64,000 nucleotides of DNA, taken from positions 2,947,363 through 3,011,362 of the forward strand of contig NZ_CP036349.1 of the NCBI RefSeq assembly GCF_007753265.1, written 5' to 3'. Source of the stretch: Botrimarina mediterranea. Lineage in GTDB: Bacteria; Planctomycetota; Planctomycetia; Pirellulales; Lacipirellulaceae. This document shows, piece after piece, positions 11,301-53,204 of the stretch. Position 1 is the stretch's first letter. Each line of letters starts with the position of its first letter. Both the position numbers and the translations under genes were made by a program. Under the pieces are notes generated by a model, which did no database searches, had not been told where the DNA came from, and saw nothing but the letters and a program-made list of their open reading frames with translations.

Positions 11301-11370
11301 ACCATGAAGGAACAAAGGAATGAAGGCTCCTGACGAGGGCCTTTCCTTTGTTCCTTCGTTCCTTTGTGGT
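11301..11370. repeat. Palindromic element, family B copy 1
   Basis: Arms of 26 bp (ACCATGAAGGAACAAAGG... against ...CCTTCGTTCCTTTGTGGT), 21 pairs plus several G-U type differences, 18-bp loop. Fills the allE-UAH gap. Family B has five copies in the window. Confidence 0.85.
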
Positions 11371-11382
11371 TAATCTTCTCTT

Positions 11383-21013: not shown

Positions 21014-21156
21014 AACCACAAAGGAACTAGGGAACGAAGGGATGGAAACTAACCGGACGCTAACGCGTGCCGGCTGATTGCAAGTTTGAACACTGTATCA
21101 GCCGCGGGGCCTTAGCCCCCGGTTCTCCCACTTTGTTCCTTCGTTCCTTTGTGGTT
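21014..21156. repeat. Palindromic element, family B copy 2, with an F arm inside
   Basis: Outer arms AACCACAAAGGAACTAGGG and its near complement. Inside lies one 28-bp arm (21097-21124) identical to the right arm of the F element at 63920-63947, so one repeat type seems to have inserted in another. Between preA and the aminotransferase gene. Confidence 0.82.
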
Positions 21157-25656: not shown

Positions 25657-25734
25657 AACCACAAAGGAACGAAGGAACCAAGAGCAGCGGGGCATGGGCC
25701 CTCACTCCCTTCGTTCCTTAGTTCCGTTGTGGTT
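25657..25734. repeat. Palindromic element, family B copy 3
   Basis: Arms AACCACAAAGGAACGAAGG and CCTTCGTTCCTTAGTTCC... with a 28-bp loop, in the divergent spacer between the nitrilase-type and mmsA genes. Confidence 0.85.
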
Positions 25735-43445: not shown

Positions 43446-44666
43446 ATGAAGTTCGTCAAAGTCCGCCAAACGCTGGTATCGGCGCCGATACCCGACGTCA
43501 CCGCCGAGGTCCGTCGGCAACTCGACCTGCTCGGCCCGCCGCCGCAGGGCGAGGTGGCGATCACCGCCGGTTCGCGCGGCATCAGCAACATCGTCGAAAT
43601 CACGAAGGCCGCGGGCGACTGGCTCCGCGACCACGGCGCTACACCCTTTGTTGTCCCCGCGATGGGCTCGCACAACGGCGCCACCGACGCCGGCCAGAAG
43701 GAGATGGTCGAGTCGCTCGGCGTCACCGAGGCCGCGACCGGCATGCCGATCCGCTCCAGCATGGAGTGCGTCAAGGTCGGTGAGGTGCCCAGCGGCGACG
43801 TCTGGATGGACCGCCACTGCTACGAGTCGGCCGGTGTCTTGGTGCTCAACCGCATCAAGCTCCACACCTGCTTCAGCGGACCCGTCCAAAGCGGACTGAC
43901 GAAGATGATGGTCGTCGGCATGGGCAAGATCCGCTCGGCCGAGACCTTCCACTCGACGCCCACGCCGCTGATGAAGCACATGCTTCTCGACATGGGGAAG
44001 CTCCTCATCGACAGCGGCAAGATCTGGGCCGGCCTCGCCATCCTCGAAGACGGCTACGACCACACCGCCGAACTACACGCCGTCCCTGCCGCCGAGATCC
44101 TCCAACGCGAACCGCAGTTGCTCGAGAAGCACCGCGGCTACTTCCCGTCGCTACCCCTCGACGCGATCGACGTGCTGGTCGTCGACAAGATCGGCAAGAC
44201 CTTCAGCGGCACCGGAATGGACCCCAACGTCATCGGCCGCCGTGGCACGAGCGTCGAGGATGTCGAGAAGCCACAGGTGAAGATCATCGCCTGCCTAGAA
44301 CTGGTCGAAGCCTCGAAGGGGAACGCCATCGGCGTCGGCCTCGCCGACTTCATCACTCGCCGGCTCCGCGACGCGATCGACGAGCACAAGACGTTCATCA
44401 ACGTCTACACAACCGGCGACATGCAACGCGGCAAGATTCCCGCCACGCTCGCCGACGACGAGGAGGTCTTCGAGAAAATGCGGGCCCGCTACGGCGAACG
44501 CCGCTGGGTGGTGGTCCCCAACACCCTGCACCTCGACCAGCTCTGGGTGAGCGAGGACCTCGCAGACGAAGTCGCCGCGCACGCCCAGTGCGAGGTCGTC
44601 AGCAATCCGTTCGAACTGGCGTTCAGCGCCGGGCGGCACAACTTGGCGTTCGACGCGCCGCAGTAG
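43446..44666 (+). CDS. LarA-like (nickel-pincer lactate racemase family) protein
   Basis: 406 residues. It resembles the LarA/DUF2088 family: early PQGEVAITAGSRGISNIVEI (nucleotide-like binding), PAMGSHNGATDAGQKEM where the His matches the catalytic GtH of LarA, and LNRIKLHTCFSGPVQSGLTKMMVVGMGKIRSAETFHS, which matches the His/Lys nickel-pincer region. LarA racemises lactate; relatives act on other 2-hydroxy acids. No LarB, LarC or LarE maturation gene is in the window. Next to the rhamnose genes, whose aldolase/dehydrogenase yields L-lactate, so 2-hydroxy-acid racemisation or epimerisation is plausible. The similarity to true LarA is distant. Confidence 0.62.
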   Translation: MKFVKVRQTLVSAPIPDVTAEVRRQLDLLGPPPQGEVAITAGSRGISNIVEITKAAGDWLRDHGATPFVVPAMGSHNGATDAGQKEMVESLGVTEAATGMPIRSSMECVKVGEVPSGDVWMDRHCYESAGVLVLNRIKLHTCFSGPVQSGLTKMMVVGMGKIRSAETFHSTPTPLMKHMLLDMGKLLIDSGKIWAGLAILEDGYDHTAELHAVPAAEILQREPQLLEKHRGYFPSLPLDAIDVLVVDKIGKTFSGTGMDPNVIGRRGTSVEDVEKPQVKIIACLELVEASKGNAIGVGLADFITRRLRDAIDEHKTFINVYTTGDMQRGKIPATLADDEEVFEKMRARYGERRWVVVPNTLHLDQLWVSEDLADEVAAHAQCEVVSNPFELAFSAGRHNLAFDAPQ

Positions 44667-45023: not shown

Positions 45024-45215
45024 TCACTCGTCGATCGCTTCTTCCATCGACGCCTCGGCCCCCGGCCACAACGCCGCCACGAACCAGACGGCGGTCATCA
45101 CCAGCGCCAACGTCTTGTACGCGTCTAGGCCCAGCGCGCCGTTGATGTACGCAAAGGGCGCAAAGGCGATCGTCGCGATCGCCAGTGCCCCAACGAGCAT
45201 CACCAGTTTCTTCAT
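45024..45215 (-). CDS. 63-residue membrane protein paired with NCS1 transporter
   Basis: Small protein with two hydrophobic helices: MLVGALAIATIAFAPFAYI (about 6-25) and TLALVMTAVWFVAALW (about 35-51), then an acidic end PGAEASMEEAIDE. Starts 11 bp after the transporter stop, same strand, so co-translation is likely. No family recognised. Its size and spacing fit an accessory subunit or regulator of the transporter, by analogy with other small membrane partners of permeases; that is inference. Confidence 0.62.
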   Translation of the reverse strand: MKKLVMLVGALAIATIAFAPFAYINGALGLDAYKTLALVMTAVWFVAALWPGAEASMEEAIDE

Positions 45216-45226
45216 CGGTCCGTTCC

Positions 45227-46633
45227 TTAGGCGTCAGCGAGATGGGTGAGTTCCGGCTGCGGCCGCTGCGTCAATTTACTCAGCAAGAGGTAGATCACGC
45301 CGCAAGCGATCCACGCCGGCACAACGCAGTAAGCGGCAAATACCCCCTGCTTGAAGATCAGGTACAGACCCACCGCGACCGGCAGGCCCCAGGCGACCAG
45401 CACCGCCATGTTGAACTGCATGCCAGTCCGGGCGGCGTACTCCTCGGTGAGCCCCATCCGCTTCATCAGCCAGTAGTCGACGAAGATCACGGCGCCCATC
45501 GGCCCAAGAATTGTCCCATAGGTGCCGACAAAGTCGAGCAGTTTATAAGCCAAGTTGGGAAACGCGCCGGCAATCGTCGCGACGGCGCCGGCGATCAAAG
45601 TCGCCGTCACCAGCGACATGCCGGGGATCAGGCTCTGGAACGCAAGGCCCGATCGATAGATCGTTGGGTTCGCGGTCGTCCAACCCGCGATGACGACGCA
45701 AAGAACGCCGGTCCATCCGAGCGCGCTGAACGCCATCACACCCGGGTTGGGATCGGTGAGCTGCGAGAGCTTGATCTGCGCCGCCAGCAAGAGACCGGCC
45801 GAGATCCAGGCGACATAGTGGCCGAGGAACATGCCGATCGCCGGCGCCCAGCCGCTAGACGCATTCCGCGCGTAGCGGAAGATTGACAGGTCGGCCATCC
45901 CGAAGTGCATCGCCCCATTGCAGAGCCAAGCGAACGCCACCAACTGCCAGAACGGGAACGCCTTCTCACCCTGCTCATTCTGAATGAAGGCGATCGCGTC
46001 GCTCCAGAAGGCGCCCTCGGTCAGCTTCGAGAAGCTATCGACGCCCATCTGTCCGAGCGACACGAGCCCCGCCGCCGCGAAGACCGCGATCATCCACGGC
46101 GCCGCGTAGTTAGCGACCCGCGCGACCGTCTTGTAGCCGGCTGCCGCAATGACGCTCATCACGATGCCAACCAGCATGACAATCAACGTGAACGACGGAG
46201 ACCCCAAGGCGAATGTCTCCTCCGGCACCTTGTAATCAACTCCAAACGGCACTCCCACCGCGCTGGCCGACACCGTCACCATCGCTCCCGCCAGGAAGCA
46301 GAACAGCACGCCGTTGACGACGTTGTACAGCTTCACCATCTGCGAGCCGGCGATCCGCTCAAGCTGATAATAAAGCGTCATCCGCTTCGCCATCGCGATC
46401 GGCACAACGAGGTACCGCCACGTCAGCACTGCTAAAACGTTGCCGAGCAATAGCCCGACGACCACGTCCTGCAGGCTCGCCCCCGCGGCGAGGAACAGCG
46501 GACCGATCATAAACTCGGTGCCCGCGCAATGCTCGCCGGCGTACATGCCCCAAAACTTGCTCGGTCCCAACAACGCCGACTCAGGCACCGGCGTGCGCTC
46601 GAACTCACCGCCGGAGGATTCCGTCTCAGCCAT
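45227..46633 (-). CDS. NCS1-family (cytosine permease-like) transporter
   Basis: 468 residues, about 12 transmembrane helices. The N-terminal motif PESALLGPSKFWGMYAGEHCAGTEFMIGPLF corresponds to the helix-1 region of NCS1 nucleobase:cation symporters, followed by LAVLTWRYLVVPIAMAKRMTLYYQLERIAG and the long central helices (NYAAPWMIAVFAAAGLVSLG; GAMHFGMADLSIFRYARN). The family carries cytosine, purines, hydantoins or allantoin, yet the gene is wedged between rhamnose isomerase and a small membrane protein, and no other transporter is in the rhamnose locus. It may carry L-rhamnose or a pathway product, which would be new for this family. Certain as NCS1-like, uncertain on substrate. Confidence 0.82.
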   Translation of the reverse strand: MAETESSGGEFERTPVPESALLGPSKFWGMYAGEHCAGTEFMIGPLFLAAGASLQDVVVGLLLGNVLAVLTWRYLVVPIAMAKRMTLYYQLERIAGSQMVKLYNVVNGVLFCFLAGAMVTVSASAVGVPFGVDYKVPEETFALGSPSFTLIVMLVGIVMSVIAAAGYKTVARVANYAAPWMIAVFAAAGLVSLGQMGVDSFSKLTEGAFWSDAIAFIQNEQGEKAFPFWQLVAFAWLCNGAMHFGMADLSIFRYARNASSGWAPAIGMFLGHYVAWISAGLLLAAQIKLSQLTDPNPGVMAFSALGWTGVLCVVIAGWTTANPTIYRSGLAFQSLIPGMSLVTATLIAGAVATIAGAFPNLAYKLLDFVGTYGTILGPMGAVIFVDYWLMKRMGLTEEYAARTGMQFNMAVLVAWGLPVAVGLYLIFKQGVFAAYCVVPAWIACGVIYLLLSKLTQRPQPELTHLADA

Positions 46634-46675
46634 AGAATTGCTGTAGAAGAGGGCCGCTAGTTAGATCGGGGATTG

Positions 46676-46766
46676 AACCACAAAGGAACGAAGGAACAAA
46701 GGGAGCACTAAGTAGCAGTGAGCTGCCTTTTGCAAACGTCCTTTGTTCCTTCGTTACTTTGTGGTT
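46676..46766. repeat. Palindromic element, family B copy 4
   Basis: Best-preserved copy: AACCACAAAGGAACGAAGG-type arms, 26 of 27 pairs, 37-bp loop, between the NCS1 transporter and rhamnose isomerase genes. Confidence 0.9.
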
Positions 46767-46769
46767 AAC

Positions 46770-48017
46770 TCAGCTGCGTTGGGACTGCACTTCGGCTTCG
46801 TACTTTTGGACTTGTTTGAGCCAACCCGCGCCCGCGGGGACGCCCTTCGCTTCACAGTAGTGCGTCCACACCGCGTCGAAGGGAAGCGTCTTGTGCTCTT
46901 CCATCAACGCGAGCCGCGCCGTCAGGTCGCCGGCGGCCTCGGCGTCGCGGACTTCGCCCCACGGCTCCAGCAGTGCAGCAAGCAGCGCCTTTTGCGTCGA
47001 TCGCACGCCAATGACCCACGCCGCGATGCGGTTGATCGTCGCATCGAAGAAGTCGAGGCCGATGTGGACACGCCCGCCGTAGCCGCCGCGGACGATCTCC
47101 TGCGCAATCGCCCGCAGCTCATCCGACAGCACCACGACGTGGTCGCTATCCCAACGCACCCCACGGCTAACGTGCAGCAACACTTCCGGAATGAACTGCA
47201 TGACTGCCGAGAGCTTGTCGCTGATCACCTCCGTTGGGTGGAAGTGACCCGCGTCGAGGCAAAGCACCTTGCCGTTCTTGATCGCGTACCCCATGTAGAA
47301 CTCGTGCGAGCCCACGGTGTAACTCTCGGCGCCGATACCGAAGAGCTTCGATTCGACCGCGTCGAGGTTCTGCTTCGGGTTGAGTTTCTCGCTGAAGACT
47401 TCGTCGAGAGCGCAGGCGAGGCGCTCGCGCGGCGCCTTGCGGTCGGCGGGCGTGTCCTTCGAGCCGTCGGGTACCCAGACGTTCGTCACACACGGCGAGC
47501 CCGTCGCGGCGCCCATCGCTGCGCCGATCCGCCGGCACGCCTTGCCGTGGTCGATCCAGAAGTCCCGGACCGACTTGTCGGCGTGTGATAGCGTCACGCC
47601 GCTCGCCGCGAGCGGGTGCGAAAAGTAGCTCGGGTTGAAATCGAGGCCCACGCCACGCGACTTGGCCCAATCGATCCACGCCGCGAAGTGCTCAGCGGTC
47701 AGCTGATCGCGCTCGACCTTCTCGCCGCCCGTCTCAGCGTAGATCGCATGCAAATTGAAGCGGTGCTTGCCGGGCAGCAGCGACATCGCCAGGTCGGCGT
47801 CCGCGCGCAGTTCCTCGGCGTTCCGCGCCTTGCCTGGGTAGTTCCCCGTCACCGCCAAGCCGCCGCCCAACTCACCGGCGCCCTCGAAGCCCCCAACGTC
47901 GTCCCCTTGCCAACAGTGGATCGACACGGGATAGGCGTCCATCGCCGCAACAGCGGCGTCGACATCGACGCCATGCTCGGCGTAACGCTCGCAAGCAAAC
48001 TCGTAGGCGGTTGTCAC
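46770..48017 (-). CDS. rhaA: L-rhamnose isomerase
   Basis: Interconverts L-rhamnose and L-rhamnulose with divalent metal in the cytosol. 415 residues, close to the 419 of E. coli RhaA. Seen: [21 protein letters not shown] near the N-terminus, [60 protein letters not shown] and [19 protein letters not shown] (metal ligands), then [17 protein letters not shown] and [17 protein letters not shown]. It is the E. coli/Bacillus RhaA type, not the shorter RhaI type. It is flanked on both sides by family B palindromes within the operon. Confidence 0.96.
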
Positions 48018-48040: not shown

Positions 48041-48112
48041 AACCACCAAGGAACGAAGGAACAAAGGCTTAGGCGTCACGGTCTCCTTTCGTTCCTTAGT
48101 TCCTTTGTGGTT
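48041..48112. repeat. Palindromic element, family B copy 5
   Basis: AACCACCAAGGAACGAAGG-type left arm and CCTTTCGTTCCTTAGTTCC-type right arm with a 17-bp loop, filling the rhaA-rhaB gap. Confidence 0.86.
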
Positions 48113-48119
48113 CAACGTC

Positions 48120-49688
48120 TTAAAATGTAGTAAGGGAACGAAACCGCCGCTTGGCGGTTGTCCATTCAGCTGACTCTGCGTTGGGCTTTACGACCTCGAC
48201 ATCTTGCGAGCGGGCGACGACGCCGCGTAGCGCTTCGATGTCCTTCACCAAGCCGAGGCCCATTGCTTGCACCAACGCGTTGCCAAGCGCTGTCGCTTCG
48301 CTGGGGCCGAGCTTCACGGTGCGGCCGGTCGCGTCGGCGGCGAGTTGGTTGAGCAGGCGGTTGTTGACGCCGCCGCCGACGAGGTACAGCGTCGCAATGC
48401 GATGATCGGTGAGCGACTCGATCCGCTCGATCGTGTCGGCGTAGCACAACGCCAAGCTGTCGAGGCAGCAGCGTGCTAACTGACCGGGCGTCTCGGGGAT
48501 TGGCTGGGTCGTCCGATCGGCGTGGCCACGGAGCTTCGCGATGCTGTCGCCCGGCGCCGCTAGGTCCTCGGCGTTCGGATCGACGATCGTCCGCAGCGCC
48601 GGCGCCTCGGCGGCGAGGTCCGCCAGCTGGGCGTACTCGTACGATTTGCCCTGTCGCTCAAGATCGCGTCGCAGCTCTTGCACGAGCCATAGGCCCGCGA
48701 TGTTTCGCAGGAACCGCGTCTTGCCGGCGACCCCCTGTTCGTTCGTGAAGCCCGCCTCAAATGCCTCACGCGTCGTCATCGGCTGATCGAGTTCGACGCC
48801 CAGCAGCGACCATGTGCCGCTCGACAAGTAAGCCCACGAACCCGCGGCCTCGCCTTCCGCCGGAACCGCCGCCACCGCCGACGCCGTGTCGTGCGTCCCC
48901 GGGGCCACAACCGCCACAGGGTGTGGCAGGCCGAGTGACGCCGCCAACTCCGGCCGCACTGGCCCCAGCCTCGTCCCCGGCTCGACGATCTTCCCCAATG
49001 CCGCACTCGGCAGTCCGACCGTGGCGAGCAGTTCGCGATCCCAATCGCCCGTCACCGCCGACAGCATGCTGGTGGTCGAGGCGTTGGTGCGTTCGTTCGC
49101 CCGGACGCCCGACAGCCAGTAGTGCAGCAAGTCGGGCAAGAGCAGCAACGATGAACCATCGATCGCGAATATTCCGGGGCTCGCCGTGTGACGGGCTTCG
49201 AGCTGAAAGAGCGTATTGAACGACTGCGGCGGAATCCCCGTGCGGCCATAAATGGCCTCGGCGCCGCCATCGATCCGGCTCAGCACGCGGTCACGCGCCA
49301 CCGCATGCGCGGGATCGCGATAAGCGTGCGGCAAGCCAACGAGCTCACCCCCCGGCTCGACCAATCCCCAATCAACGCCCCACGTGTCGCAACCAACACT
49401 CTTGATCTCAACGCCCGCCTCGCGAGCCATCACCGCCGCCGCCTCGATGCCTGTCAGCACCTCGCGCCAAAGCGTCGTCAAATCCCAAACCGGCCCCGCC
49501 GGCGTATCGAGTGGTTCGTGGGAGAAGCGATGCGCCTCTTCAAGACGCACCACGAGCGGCTCACCGTCCAAAACGGCAAGCATCGCGCGGCCGCCCGAGG
49601 CGCCGAGGTCGATCGCGATGTGGGCTGAAGAAGGCAGGGAGGGACGAGGGGTTAGGGACGGGGGACGAGGGAAGCCTAGAAGAAGCAT
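48120..49688 (-). CDS. rhaB: Rhamnulokinase
   Basis: FGGY-family kinase making L-rhamnulose 1-phosphate. 522 residues from the ATG giving MLLLGFPRPP; a longer frame would overlap the upstream small gene and is rejected. Family homology begins at HIAIDLGASGGRAMLAVL (ATPase phosphate-1 motif); other parts: GCDTWGVDWGLVE, VVAPGTHDTASAVAAVP, YLSSGTWSLLGVE, LYLVGGGVNNRLLNQLAADATGRTV. Residues 7-16 (PRPPSLTPRP) are encoded by the left 31-bp arm of the inserted four-helix-bundle element, so the N-terminus seems to have been rebuilt by that insertion. Confidence 0.94.
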   Translation of the reverse strand: MLLLGFPRPPSLTPRPSLPSSAHIAIDLGASGGRAMLAVLDGEPLVVRLEEAHRFSHEPLDTPAGPVWDLTTLWREVLTGIEAAAVMAREAGVEIKSVGCDTWGVDWGLVEPGGELVGLPHAYRDPAHAVARDRVLSRIDGGAEAIYGRTGIPPQSFNTLFQLEARHTASPGIFAIDGSSLLLLPDLLHYWLSGVRANERTNASTTSMLSAVTGDWDRELLATVGLPSAALGKIVEPGTRLGPVRPELAASLGLPHPVAVVAPGTHDTASAVAAVPAEGEAAGSWAYLSSGTWSLLGVELDQPMTTREAFEAGFTNEQGVAGKTRFLRNIAGLWLVQELRRDLERQGKSYEYAQLADLAAEAPALRTIVDPNAEDLAAPGDSIAKLRGHADRTTQPIPETPGQLARCCLDSLALCYADTIERIESLTDHRIATLYLVGGGVNNRLLNQLAADATGRTVKLGPSEATALGNALVQAMGLGLVKDIEALRGVVARSQDVEVVKPNAESAEWTTAKRRFRSLTTF

Positions 49689-50109
49689 CGCTTGAACTAG
49701 ATATCTACTTTCTTCCGTAGGGCTTGTTGAAGGCTGCGAAGCATTCGGCTTTCTTCGTCGCACATCGACTGCAATTTTTCTACCGCAGCAGGAGACATAA
49801 AGCCGAGTTGCGAGGCGATGATTAATTGAGTTTCCATTTCCGCCAGCGACCCGCTTGCAATCGATAAGTGTCGTAGGTAGTCCTTCGTCGATTCACGGGC
49901 ATTTCCTTCCGCAATGTTTGAGGGAACTGAAACGGCGCACCGACGGAGCTGGCTCGTCAATCCGAAGCGTTCTTCTGCGGGGAAAGCACGAGTCGCCTCA
50001 TAGACGGCCAGAGAGAGCTTAACCCCCAGCTGCCAAACCTTAAGGTCACGATAGCTAGAAACACTCGCCATCATTCTTTCCCTCGTCCCCCGTCCCTAGC
50101 CCCTCGTCC

Positions 50110-50110
<1 letters not shown>
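49641..50110. mobile_element. Putative 470-bp cassette: S23 gene between 31-bp inverted repeats
   Basis: Arms 49641-49671 and 50080-50110 are inverted copies with 30 of 31 identical bases (GGGACGAGGGG(T/C)TAGGGACG...). They enclose exactly one gene. One arm touches the stop codon of the aldolase gene and the other is read as the N-terminus of RhaB, so the unit looks inserted into the junction of two operon genes. No target-site duplication could be made out. Confidence 0.6.
49697..50074 (-). CDS. Four-helix-bundle protein (S23 / 23S rRNA intervening-sequence type)
   Basis: 125 residues, full family length. Seen: YRDLKVWQLGVKLSLAVYEATRAFPAEERFGLTSQLRRCAVSVPSNIAEGNARES, the hallmark of S23/IVS proteins (LRR.A.S.P.NIAEG), then KDYLRHLSIASGSLAEMETQLIIA and a C-terminal helix with ESRMLRSLQQAL. 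Related proteins are encoded by insertions in 23S rRNA and as Avd accessory proteins of diversity-generating retroelements; biochemical role unknown in stand-alone cases. It interrupts the rhamnose operon in the operon's own direction. No reverse transcriptase or variable repeat is nearby. Confidence 0.9.
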   Translation of the reverse strand: MMASVSSYRDLKVWQLGVKLSLAVYEATRAFPAEERFGLTSQLRRCAVSVPSNIAEGNARESTKDYLRHLSIASGSLAEMETQLIIASQLGFMSPAAVEKLQSMCDEESRMLRSLQQALRKKVDI

Positions 50111-52308
<2,198 letters not shown>

Positions 52309-52344: not shown

Positions 52345-52427
52345 GATTTTCTGGCTAGACGAAACCATTTTGGCCACTAAGTTGGTAAAAATCAACGCCA
52401 CGCATGTGGATATTTGTGGGATTCGCT

Positions 52428-53204
52428 ATGTTTGCCGGTCAACGCCAGAACGAGATCTACCGCGACCTCCAAGAGCAGGGCGCCGTCTCGGTGACTGCCC
52501 TGGCCGAGCGGTTCGCCGTCACCGACGAGACGATCCGCCGCGACCTGGCGAAGCTGGCCCGTAGCGGCCGCGTCAAACGCACCCACGGCGGCGCCGTCCT
52601 GGCGGCGAGCGATCCGAGCGAACCCCCCTTCGCTGTGCGGCAGACGGCTAACACAGCCGCCAAGCGGGCGATCGCCCTGGTCGCCGTCGGCGTGGTCCAG
52701 CCCGGCGACGTGATCGCGATCGACGCCTCCTCGACCGGCCTCGAGCTAGCGAAGTTGCTGCCGGAGGTTCCCACGGAGCTGCCGATCACCGTCGTCTCGA
52801 ACGGGCTCGATGTGGTGCGGTGGCTCGCCGACCGCGCCGACGTGAACGTCATCTCGACCGGCGGCGAATTCGACGCGGCCGGCCAGTGCTTCGTCGGCCC
52901 GATCGCCGAAACGGCCCTACGGCAGTTCGCCTTCCGTCGGGCGTTCGTCTCCTGCCGCGCACTCGACGCCACGCGCGGCGCCGGCGAGTCGTGCCCGTCG
53001 CACGCCGCGGTAAAGCGGGCGATGCTCGCCGCCGCGGAAGAGAGCTACCTCCTCGCCGACAGCAGCAAGTCCGCGGAGCGCGCGATGTGCTACTACGCCG
53101 AGCCGAGCGAGTTCAACCGCATCTACAGCGACGGCGAGATGGCGCTCGACACCCAGAAAGACCTGACCGAAGCCGGCGCCAACTTGGTTTGCGTCGCGCT
53201 GTAA
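52428..53204 (+). CDS. DeoR/GlpR-family transcriptional regulator
   Basis: 258 residues from the ATG giving MFAGQRQNEIYRDLQEQG; 8 more codons are open upstream. N-terminal helix-turn-helix: VSVTALAERFAVTDETIRRDLAKLARSGRVKRTHGGAVL, the DeoR signature. Effector domain (about 70-250): AIDASSTGLELAKLLPE, ITVVSNGLDVVRWLADR, VISTGGEFDAAGQCFVGPIAE and LLADSSKSAERAM, the sugar-phosphate isomerase-like fold that binds phosphorylated sugars. Divergent from the rhamnose operon, so it probably represses it and responds to rhamnulose 1-phosphate or a similar intermediate. Confidence 0.92.
   Translation: MFAGQRQNEIYRDLQEQGAVSVTALAERFAVTDETIRRDLAKLARSGRVKRTHGGAVLAASDPSEPPFAVRQTANTAAKRAIALVAVGVVQPGDVIAIDASSTGLELAKLLPEVPTELPITVVSNGLDVVRWLADRADVNVISTGGEFDAAGQCFVGPIAETALRQFAFRRAFVSCRALDATRGAGESCPSHAAVKRAMLAAAEESYLLADSSKSAERAMCYYAEPSEFNRIYSDGEMALDTQKDLTEAGANLVCVAL

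Follow-up and report, generated by a model that had tools for sequence, protein, structure and literature searches.

A CodB-like transporter and a two-helix membrane protein in a planctomycete rhamnose operon as a putative L-rhamnose importer

In a rhamnose operon of the planctomycete Botrimarina mediterranea, we found a 468-aa membrane protein related to NCS1 transporters and encoded directly ahead of a 63-aa membrane protein, and we propose that the two likely form an NCS1-derived, probably Na+-coupled importer of L-rhamnose with a small accessory subunit. Both the substrate and the coupling ion are inferred, there being no transport or expression data, and L-rhamnose itself is in our judgement the probable but by no means assured substrate. 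We also lean, with less conviction, toward a bolder reading, in which a branch of the NCS1 fold that lies outside all Pfam models and spans at least five phyla would have become a family of sugar (mainly L-rhamnose) transporters, independently of the SGLT/SSS carriers and with a dedicated, sometimes fused two-helix subunit. The operon lies in a stretch of 64,000 nucleotides of contig NZ_CP036349.1, referred to here as the window.

Operon layout and identity of the transporter

On the minus strand, the operon runs from rhaEW through a 23S rRNA-IVP gene, rhaB, rhaA and the transporter gene to the small ORF, with a DeoR-family gene diverging from its head (Table 1), and operon membership of the transporter is shown by this arrangement. 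The original prediction, made from sequence alone, had placed an NCS1 protein and a 63-residue ORF 11 bp apart in a rhamnose operon; the coordinates and the rha neighbors were confirmed, and the gap between the two ORFs is exactly 11 bp. The small ORF has a good ribosome site, whose AGGA overlaps the TAA stop codon of the transporter gene 8 nt 5' of the ATG. A DeoR-family gene occupies the equivalent position in the relatives' loci L031, L034, L037, L041 and L046-L049. The starts given for rhaB and rhaEW were chosen by coding score, the open frames extending to 49763 and 52401, respectively, and that of rhaB is uncertain.

Several further features of the locus were observed. The 23S rRNA-IVP gene separates rhaEW from rhaB within the operon. 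The LarA-like isomerase gene that converges on the operon also adjoins the L031 locus; its role in the pathway and its substrate are unknown, a sugar acid or lactate being conceivable. A palindromic intergenic element, CTTTGTTCCTTCGTTNCTTTGTGGTT, occurs in nine copies in the window, where shuffled sequences lead one to expect none, mostly as inverted pairs, one of which sits between rhaA and the transporter gene.

Table 1. Features of the rhamnose locus and other elements of the window, with coordinates in the window, strand and supporting evidence
Feature	Position	Strand	Evidence
Nickel-pincer (LarA-like) isomerase group 22, convergent neighbor	43446..44666	+	NF052515 460.8 bits
63-aa two-helix membrane protein with acidic tail, proposed accessory subunit	45024..45215	-	homologous ORF or fusion in relatives; W44-F45
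TAAGGA, transporter stop overlapping ribosome site of the small ORF	45224..45229	-	sequence
NCS1-related (CodB-like, LeuT-fold) membrane transporter, 468 aa, proposed L-rhamnose importer	45227..46633	-	hhalign; AF2/Foldseek; rhaA adjacency in relatives
rhaA, L-rhamnose isomerase	46770..48017	-	NF002203 681.6 bits and TIGR01748 657.6 bits, both above cut-off
rhaB, rhamnulokinase (FGGY)	48120..49688	-	TIGR02627 432.9 bits, best family but below the 528-bit cut-off; FGGY_N/C
23S rRNA-IVP four-helix-bundle protein	49697..50074	-	PF05635 131.7 bits
rhaEW, bifunctional rhamnulose-1-P aldolase / lactaldehyde dehydrogenase	50110..52308	-	NF006189 1086 bits (above cut-off); TIGR02632 985.6 bits
DeoR-family regulator, divergent from operon	52404..53204	+	PF00455, PF08220
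SSS symporter, 690 aa	60285..62357	+	PF00474
Palindromic element CTTTGTTCCTTCGTTNCTTTGTGGTT	46671-46771, 48041-48112, 21014-21156, 25657-25734, 11346-11371

Pfam, NCBIfam and PDB sequence searches gave the 468-aa protein no name. At an E-value of 0.01, neither it nor any of the 25 members of the homologue alignment matched a Pfam model, the SSF model (PF00474) being unmatched in all 25 and the RhaT model (PF06379) unmatched by the 468-aa protein, and the match to the NCBIfam cytosine permease model was weak, at 49.5 bits where the cut-off is 326. A name came only from profile comparison and fold. A profile of 25 relatives aligned over its full length with E. coli CodB in hhalign (E 4.6e-6), and E. 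coli CodB used as a tblastn query retrieves the transporter family. The AlphaFold2 model of the 468-aa protein (pLDDT 89, pTM 0.88), like that of a homologue with a natural C-terminal fusion (L044), had the cytosine:Na+ symporter CodB (7QOA) as its top Foldseek match (E 3.4e-10). In the Foldseek ranking, 7QOA took places 1-2 (TM 0.66/0.76) and Mhp1 places 3-5, while NIS, SiaT and SGLT, and thus the SSS structures, fell below both. Because the profile aligns end to end with CodB and because Foldseek orders CodB first and Mhp1 second, we take the NCS1-type fold as shown and the protein as an NCS1-derived, separate branch, a placement inferred from sequence and model. The NCS1 identity named in the original prediction thus held, by profile and fold only and without a Pfam match. 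Annotation is corrected accordingly for a family that is invisible to Pfam and whose nearest relative would suggest a nucleobase permease.

One homologue, L061 (L061:8112-10511), carries an insert of roughly 270 aa, soluble in appearance, before TM6, along with a fused C-terminal two-helix extension. Its branch is very long, and its placement in the tree is unreliable.

The residues of the CodB site, with roles as described for CodB (PMC9379551), were mapped onto the family with hhalign. T319, T320, R253 and Y326, which correspond to the Na2 threonines Thr278 and Thr279, Arg216 and Tyr285 of CodB, are invariant in 108 of 108 homologues, and the features shared with CodB further include a W-T-T motif in TM8 with a Tyr seven residues on, the Arg lying in TM6b, and a [VI]D-[YFH] motif after TM9/10. 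From the conserved Na2 site, we infer that coupling to Na+ is probable. In contrast, the aromatic sandwich that holds the base, made of a Trp in TM3 and a Phe or Trp in TM6 and conserved through NCS1 (PMC9379551), does not appear to be retained. The position of CodB Phe204 is A241 in the window protein and is Ala in 100, Ser in three, Thr in three and Cys in two of the 108 homologues, never Phe, and the TM3 stretch, residues 105-122 of the window protein, contains no Trp. The TM6 mapping is ungapped, whereas that of TM3 was made by eye. Also unlike CodB and Mhp1, the 468-aa protein has a polar TM1 motif (GEH-AGTE), and the polar and other residues invariant in the alignment are E34, H35, G38, T39, E40, N239 and H243; that the conserved polar ones line a sugar site is inferred.

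Genomic context and other possible carriers

Homologues were found in 22 of 60 relative genomes, and a tblastn search of rha genes over 32 loci placed rhaA beside the homologue in the majority of the closer loci and also in a single genome from another family. A GTDB-wide scan covered the 80 nearest homologue loci out of more than 570, which are not a random sample, and recurrence across phyla is shown by their spread over Planctomycetota, Verrucomicrobiota, Bacteroidota, Lentisphaerota and Acidobacteriota. In 32 of these 80 loci, rhaA lies no more than 500 bp from the homologue, and in 29 of the 32 it immediately precedes the homologue in the same orientation. Rhamnose-catabolic genes (RhaA, RhaI, RhaB, RhaEW) or a GH78 rhamnosidase gene occur in at least 63 of the 80, and in one more, L140, a rhamnosidase gene lies immediately 5' of the homologue. 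The homologue was present in 20 of 27 rhaA-positive relatives versus 2 of 33 rhaA-negative ones (60 genomes, p 5e-8), and in 15 of 36 rhaA-positive versus 14 of 356 rhaA-negative planctomycetes (392 genomes, p 4e-10). The genomes are interrelated, so these p-values exaggerate the independence of the cases. Genomic evidence thus supports well that the transporter belongs to the rhamnose system, even though L033, a close homologue with about 73% identity, lies away from rha genes, which its genome encodes elsewhere.

More distant paralogues keep company with other sugar genes. The L053 paralogue lies directly before a GH78 alpha-L-rhamnosidase gene, with homologous genes in L052, L054-L056 and L058. 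Those of L042, L043 and L045 adjoin a GH127 gene and two sugar-type dehydrogenase genes, the conserved order being XylR-like regulator, DUF1559 protein, GH127, transporter, small protein, Zn-alcohol dehydrogenase and SDR; it is possible that this locus serves L-arabinose or another pentose or deoxysugar. A xylulokinase gene is found a few kb from the L040 paralogue, and a mannitol dehydrogenase gene is adjacent to that of L059.

The original prediction had left a choice between an NCS1 protein newly specific for a sugar, aided by a small accessory subunit, and a misplaced nucleobase carrier, here a nucleobase or hydantoin carrier lying in the operon by chance. In favor of the latter, CodB and Mhp1 are the nearest relatives in both fold and sequence. 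Against it, the rha context is repeated in several phyla, codA was near none of the homologues examined among the nearest GTDB loci, no purine- or pyrimidine-like neighbors were seen among those scanned except a nucleoside-symporter-type MFS gene about 2.6 kb from L121, and the equivalent of Phe204 is gone in all 108 homologues. With that residue lost and codA not nearby, we reject the nucleobase-carrier reading, which is all but excluded. The prediction had suggested surveying the order of rhaA, NCS1 gene and small protein gene, and had held that it would be refuted if the pair lay mostly beside purine genes in relatives; the order recurs across families and phyla, and among the neighbors scanned such a preference for purine genes was not seen. 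Since this order recurs, codA is absent nearby, the stacking Phe is lost and natural fusions occur, the first of these readings, a sugar carrier with its small subunit, is strongly favored, the substrate remaining inferred.

The original prediction had also stated that the rhamnose locus lacks every known type of rhamnose transporter. This holds for the locus, and such an absence extends genome-wide to RhaT, of which none was found in the whole B. mediterranea genome, and to the ABC type, RhaS matches in this genome being far below the cut-off. It does not extend to MFS carriers elsewhere, as the genome encodes unlinked MFS Sugar_tr porters, and many SSS genes are also present, all potential rhamnose carriers. 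One SSS gene lies in the window, about 8 kb from the rha operon (Table 1).

Among the 60 relative genomes, a RhaT match was obtained in 7 of 7 rhaA-positive genomes without the homologue versus 5 of 20 with it, some of these matches being weak, and in G007 and G023 the gene immediately following rhaA is RhaT. The NCS1-type gene nevertheless shares an operon or contig with RhaT in L114, L125, L126, G196, G255 and G424, most of them after rhaA. Replacement of RhaT in some genomes and coexistence with it in others are thus both shown. A strict reading of the transporter as a RhaT replacement is weakened by the operons that hold both genes, and this coexistence shows that the two are not simply interchangeable everywhere; the substrate may therefore differ or be redundant. 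Of the 36 rhaA-positive genomes among the 392 planctomycetes, five encode RhaT as well as the homologue, several of these within one operon, and 18 encode neither. Because of these 18, an additional rhamnose uptake system, i.e., a further transporter type, is likely in those planctomycetes.

These observations bear on a second alternative, in which the protein is a sugar carrier that belongs to the rhamnose regulon but has a related compound as its main substrate (a rhamnose-containing di- or oligosaccharide, a modified rhamnose, or another deoxyhexose or pentose), free rhamnose entering via RhaT or unlinked MFS or SSS carriers. It is supported by the six cases of RhaT in a shared operon or contig, by the paralogues found with GH127, xylulokinase or mannitol dehydrogenase genes, by the GH78 gene directly 3' of one paralogue group, and by the MFS and SSS genes of the B. 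mediterranea genome itself. Against it, most rha loci show the NCS1-type gene as the sole transporter gene, directly after the isomerase gene, and in relatives without the NCS1-type gene that position is held by RhaT. We consider this alternative unlikely. Less likely still is a third, in which the transporter carries a product of the pathway (L-lactate, lactaldehyde or propanediol) and not the sugar. An LldD-type lactate dehydrogenase gene adjoins the transporter gene in several Bacteroidota loci, GlcD/GlcF-like genes lie 3' of it in L057, and the LarA-like isomerase gene neighbors the operon in the window. However, paralogues adjoin glycosidase and sugar dehydrogenase genes without any lactate genes, and lactate oxidation is in any case an expected downstream step of the rhamnose pathway. 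We regard this possibility as very improbable and retain L-rhamnose as the likely substrate.

The small two-helix protein

Two segments of the 63-aa protein are hydrophobic and its tail is acidic, with a pI of about 4.05, in agreement with its earlier description as a two-helix protein with an acidic end. In 28 of the 32 relative loci, a two-helix ORF homologous to the small one lies 3' of the transporter gene, at a spacing of -17 to about +120 bp and regardless of the other neighbors, a recurrence that takes the pairing beyond coincidence, and an ATGA start-stop overlap between the two genes is frequent. L044, L059 and L061 lack a separate small ORF, and there the transporter instead bears a C-terminal two-helix extension, which is clearly homologous to the small protein in L044 and diverged in L059 and L061; L060 could not be judged, as its gene is frameshifted. 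An HMM search of the 80 GTDB loci found the small protein separate in 58, weakly matched in one more, fused in two (L100 and L153) and absent in 19. The linkage of the small protein to the transporter and its fusion to it are thus shown. Across 26 small-protein sequences, only W44-F45 is invariant, the remainder being poorly conserved, and Pfam searches of these 26 gave only scattered weak matches, no family recurring beyond two.

The AlphaFold2 model of the L044 fusion (pLDDT 87) predicts both extra helices with good confidence. Its input consisted of natural read-through frames of neighboring loci, the small proteins having scattered when mixed into the transporter alignment, and the model offers nothing quantitative on the interface. 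Because the small protein is linked to paralogues of different context and because natural fusions exist, we interpret it as a subunit; that it and the transporter make up a two-part unit is well supported by genomics, while contact between the subunits is inferred.

One may object that the small protein is no stable subunit but acts independently, as a regulator or assembly factor, or is merely a linked bystander, a view which would be compatible with rhamnose as substrate. The 19 absences, which comprise 15 Bacteroidota loci, most of them with rha genes, and others including three from Verrucomicrobiota, one of these three being cut at a contig edge, speak for this view, as does the poor conservation of the sequence besides the WF pair. 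Against it stand the presence of the small protein beside paralogues of differing neighborhoods, the many start-stop overlaps and the natural fusions to the C-terminal end of the transporter, of which there are at least five. We consider the objection unlikely to be correct and retain the accessory-subunit reading. A universal requirement for the small protein is nevertheless rejected, since it went undetected in about 15 Bacteroidota loci, and its absence from one Bacteroidota clade means that it is not always required.

Proposed mechanism and relation to known systems

In the mechanism that we propose, the 468-aa protein would be the main subunit of a secondary L-rhamnose importer descended from the NCS1 (CodB/Mhp1) branch of the LeuT fold. 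Na+ at the conserved Na2 site would probably drive CodB-like alternating access, with L-rhamnose in place of the base. The polar residues of TM1 (E34, H35, T39 and E40) and of TM6 (N239 and H243) may supplant the aromatic nucleobase sandwich and line the sugar site. The translationally linked 63-aa protein is predicted to pack on the transporter as an accessory subunit, serving its stability, insertion or activity. The pair would be co-transcribed with rhaEW, rhaB and rhaA under the divergent DeoR regulator, and uptake and catabolism would therefore be induced together; induction by rhamnose is inferred.

By analogy only, this arrangement resembles SGLT2-MAP17, a LeuT-fold sugar carrier with a small helical partner that was among the Foldseek matches. 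In contrast, SGLT2 belongs to the SSS and not the NCS1 family, and the likeness of MAP17 to the small protein rests on no sequence comparison. Bacterial SSS carriers have small partners as well (e.g., YjcH and YhdT), helical membrane proteins encoded beside a LeuT-fold symporter; no Pfam family recurs among the 26 small proteins, and this likeness too was drawn without direct sequence comparison.

The substrates described for NCS1 proteins are nucleobases, hydantoins, allantoin and, in 2026, metformin (PMC13390362), and the open-licence literature searched contained nothing that joins NCS1 proteins or cytosine permeases to rhamnose. If our proposal is true, a family known only for nucleobase-like compounds would include a sugar branch, and the LeuT fold would have been retuned for sugars a second time. 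It would also supply a missing rhamnose uptake route for many polysaccharide-degrading Planctomycetota, Verrucomicrobiota and Bacteroidota, and a bacterial model in which a LeuT-fold sugar carrier has a small accessory subunit, natural fusions of the two included.

At least three families of rhamnose transporters have been described, including RhaT, the ABC system RhaFGHJ (RhaSTPQ) and the MFS sugar porter RhaY, none of them NCS1 (Rodionova et al. 2013, PMC3870299). RhaT, an L-rhamnose:H+ symporter of the DMT superfamily (PF06379), resembles the NCS1-type protein in the position of its gene in G007 and G023 and is of an unrelated family; the ABC importer and RhaY have a like role in the rhamnose regulon, while their protein families differ. 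In the Cecembia locus (L142), an MFS sugar porter gene lies beside the NCS1-type gene, and this organism belongs to the family of Echinicola. The Fitness Browser and GapMind list Echvi_1617 of Echinicola vietnamensis as a rhamnose transporter, and whether it is of the NCS1 or the MFS type is undetermined. If Echvi_1617 is a member of the family described here, it could already supply genetic evidence on the substrate.
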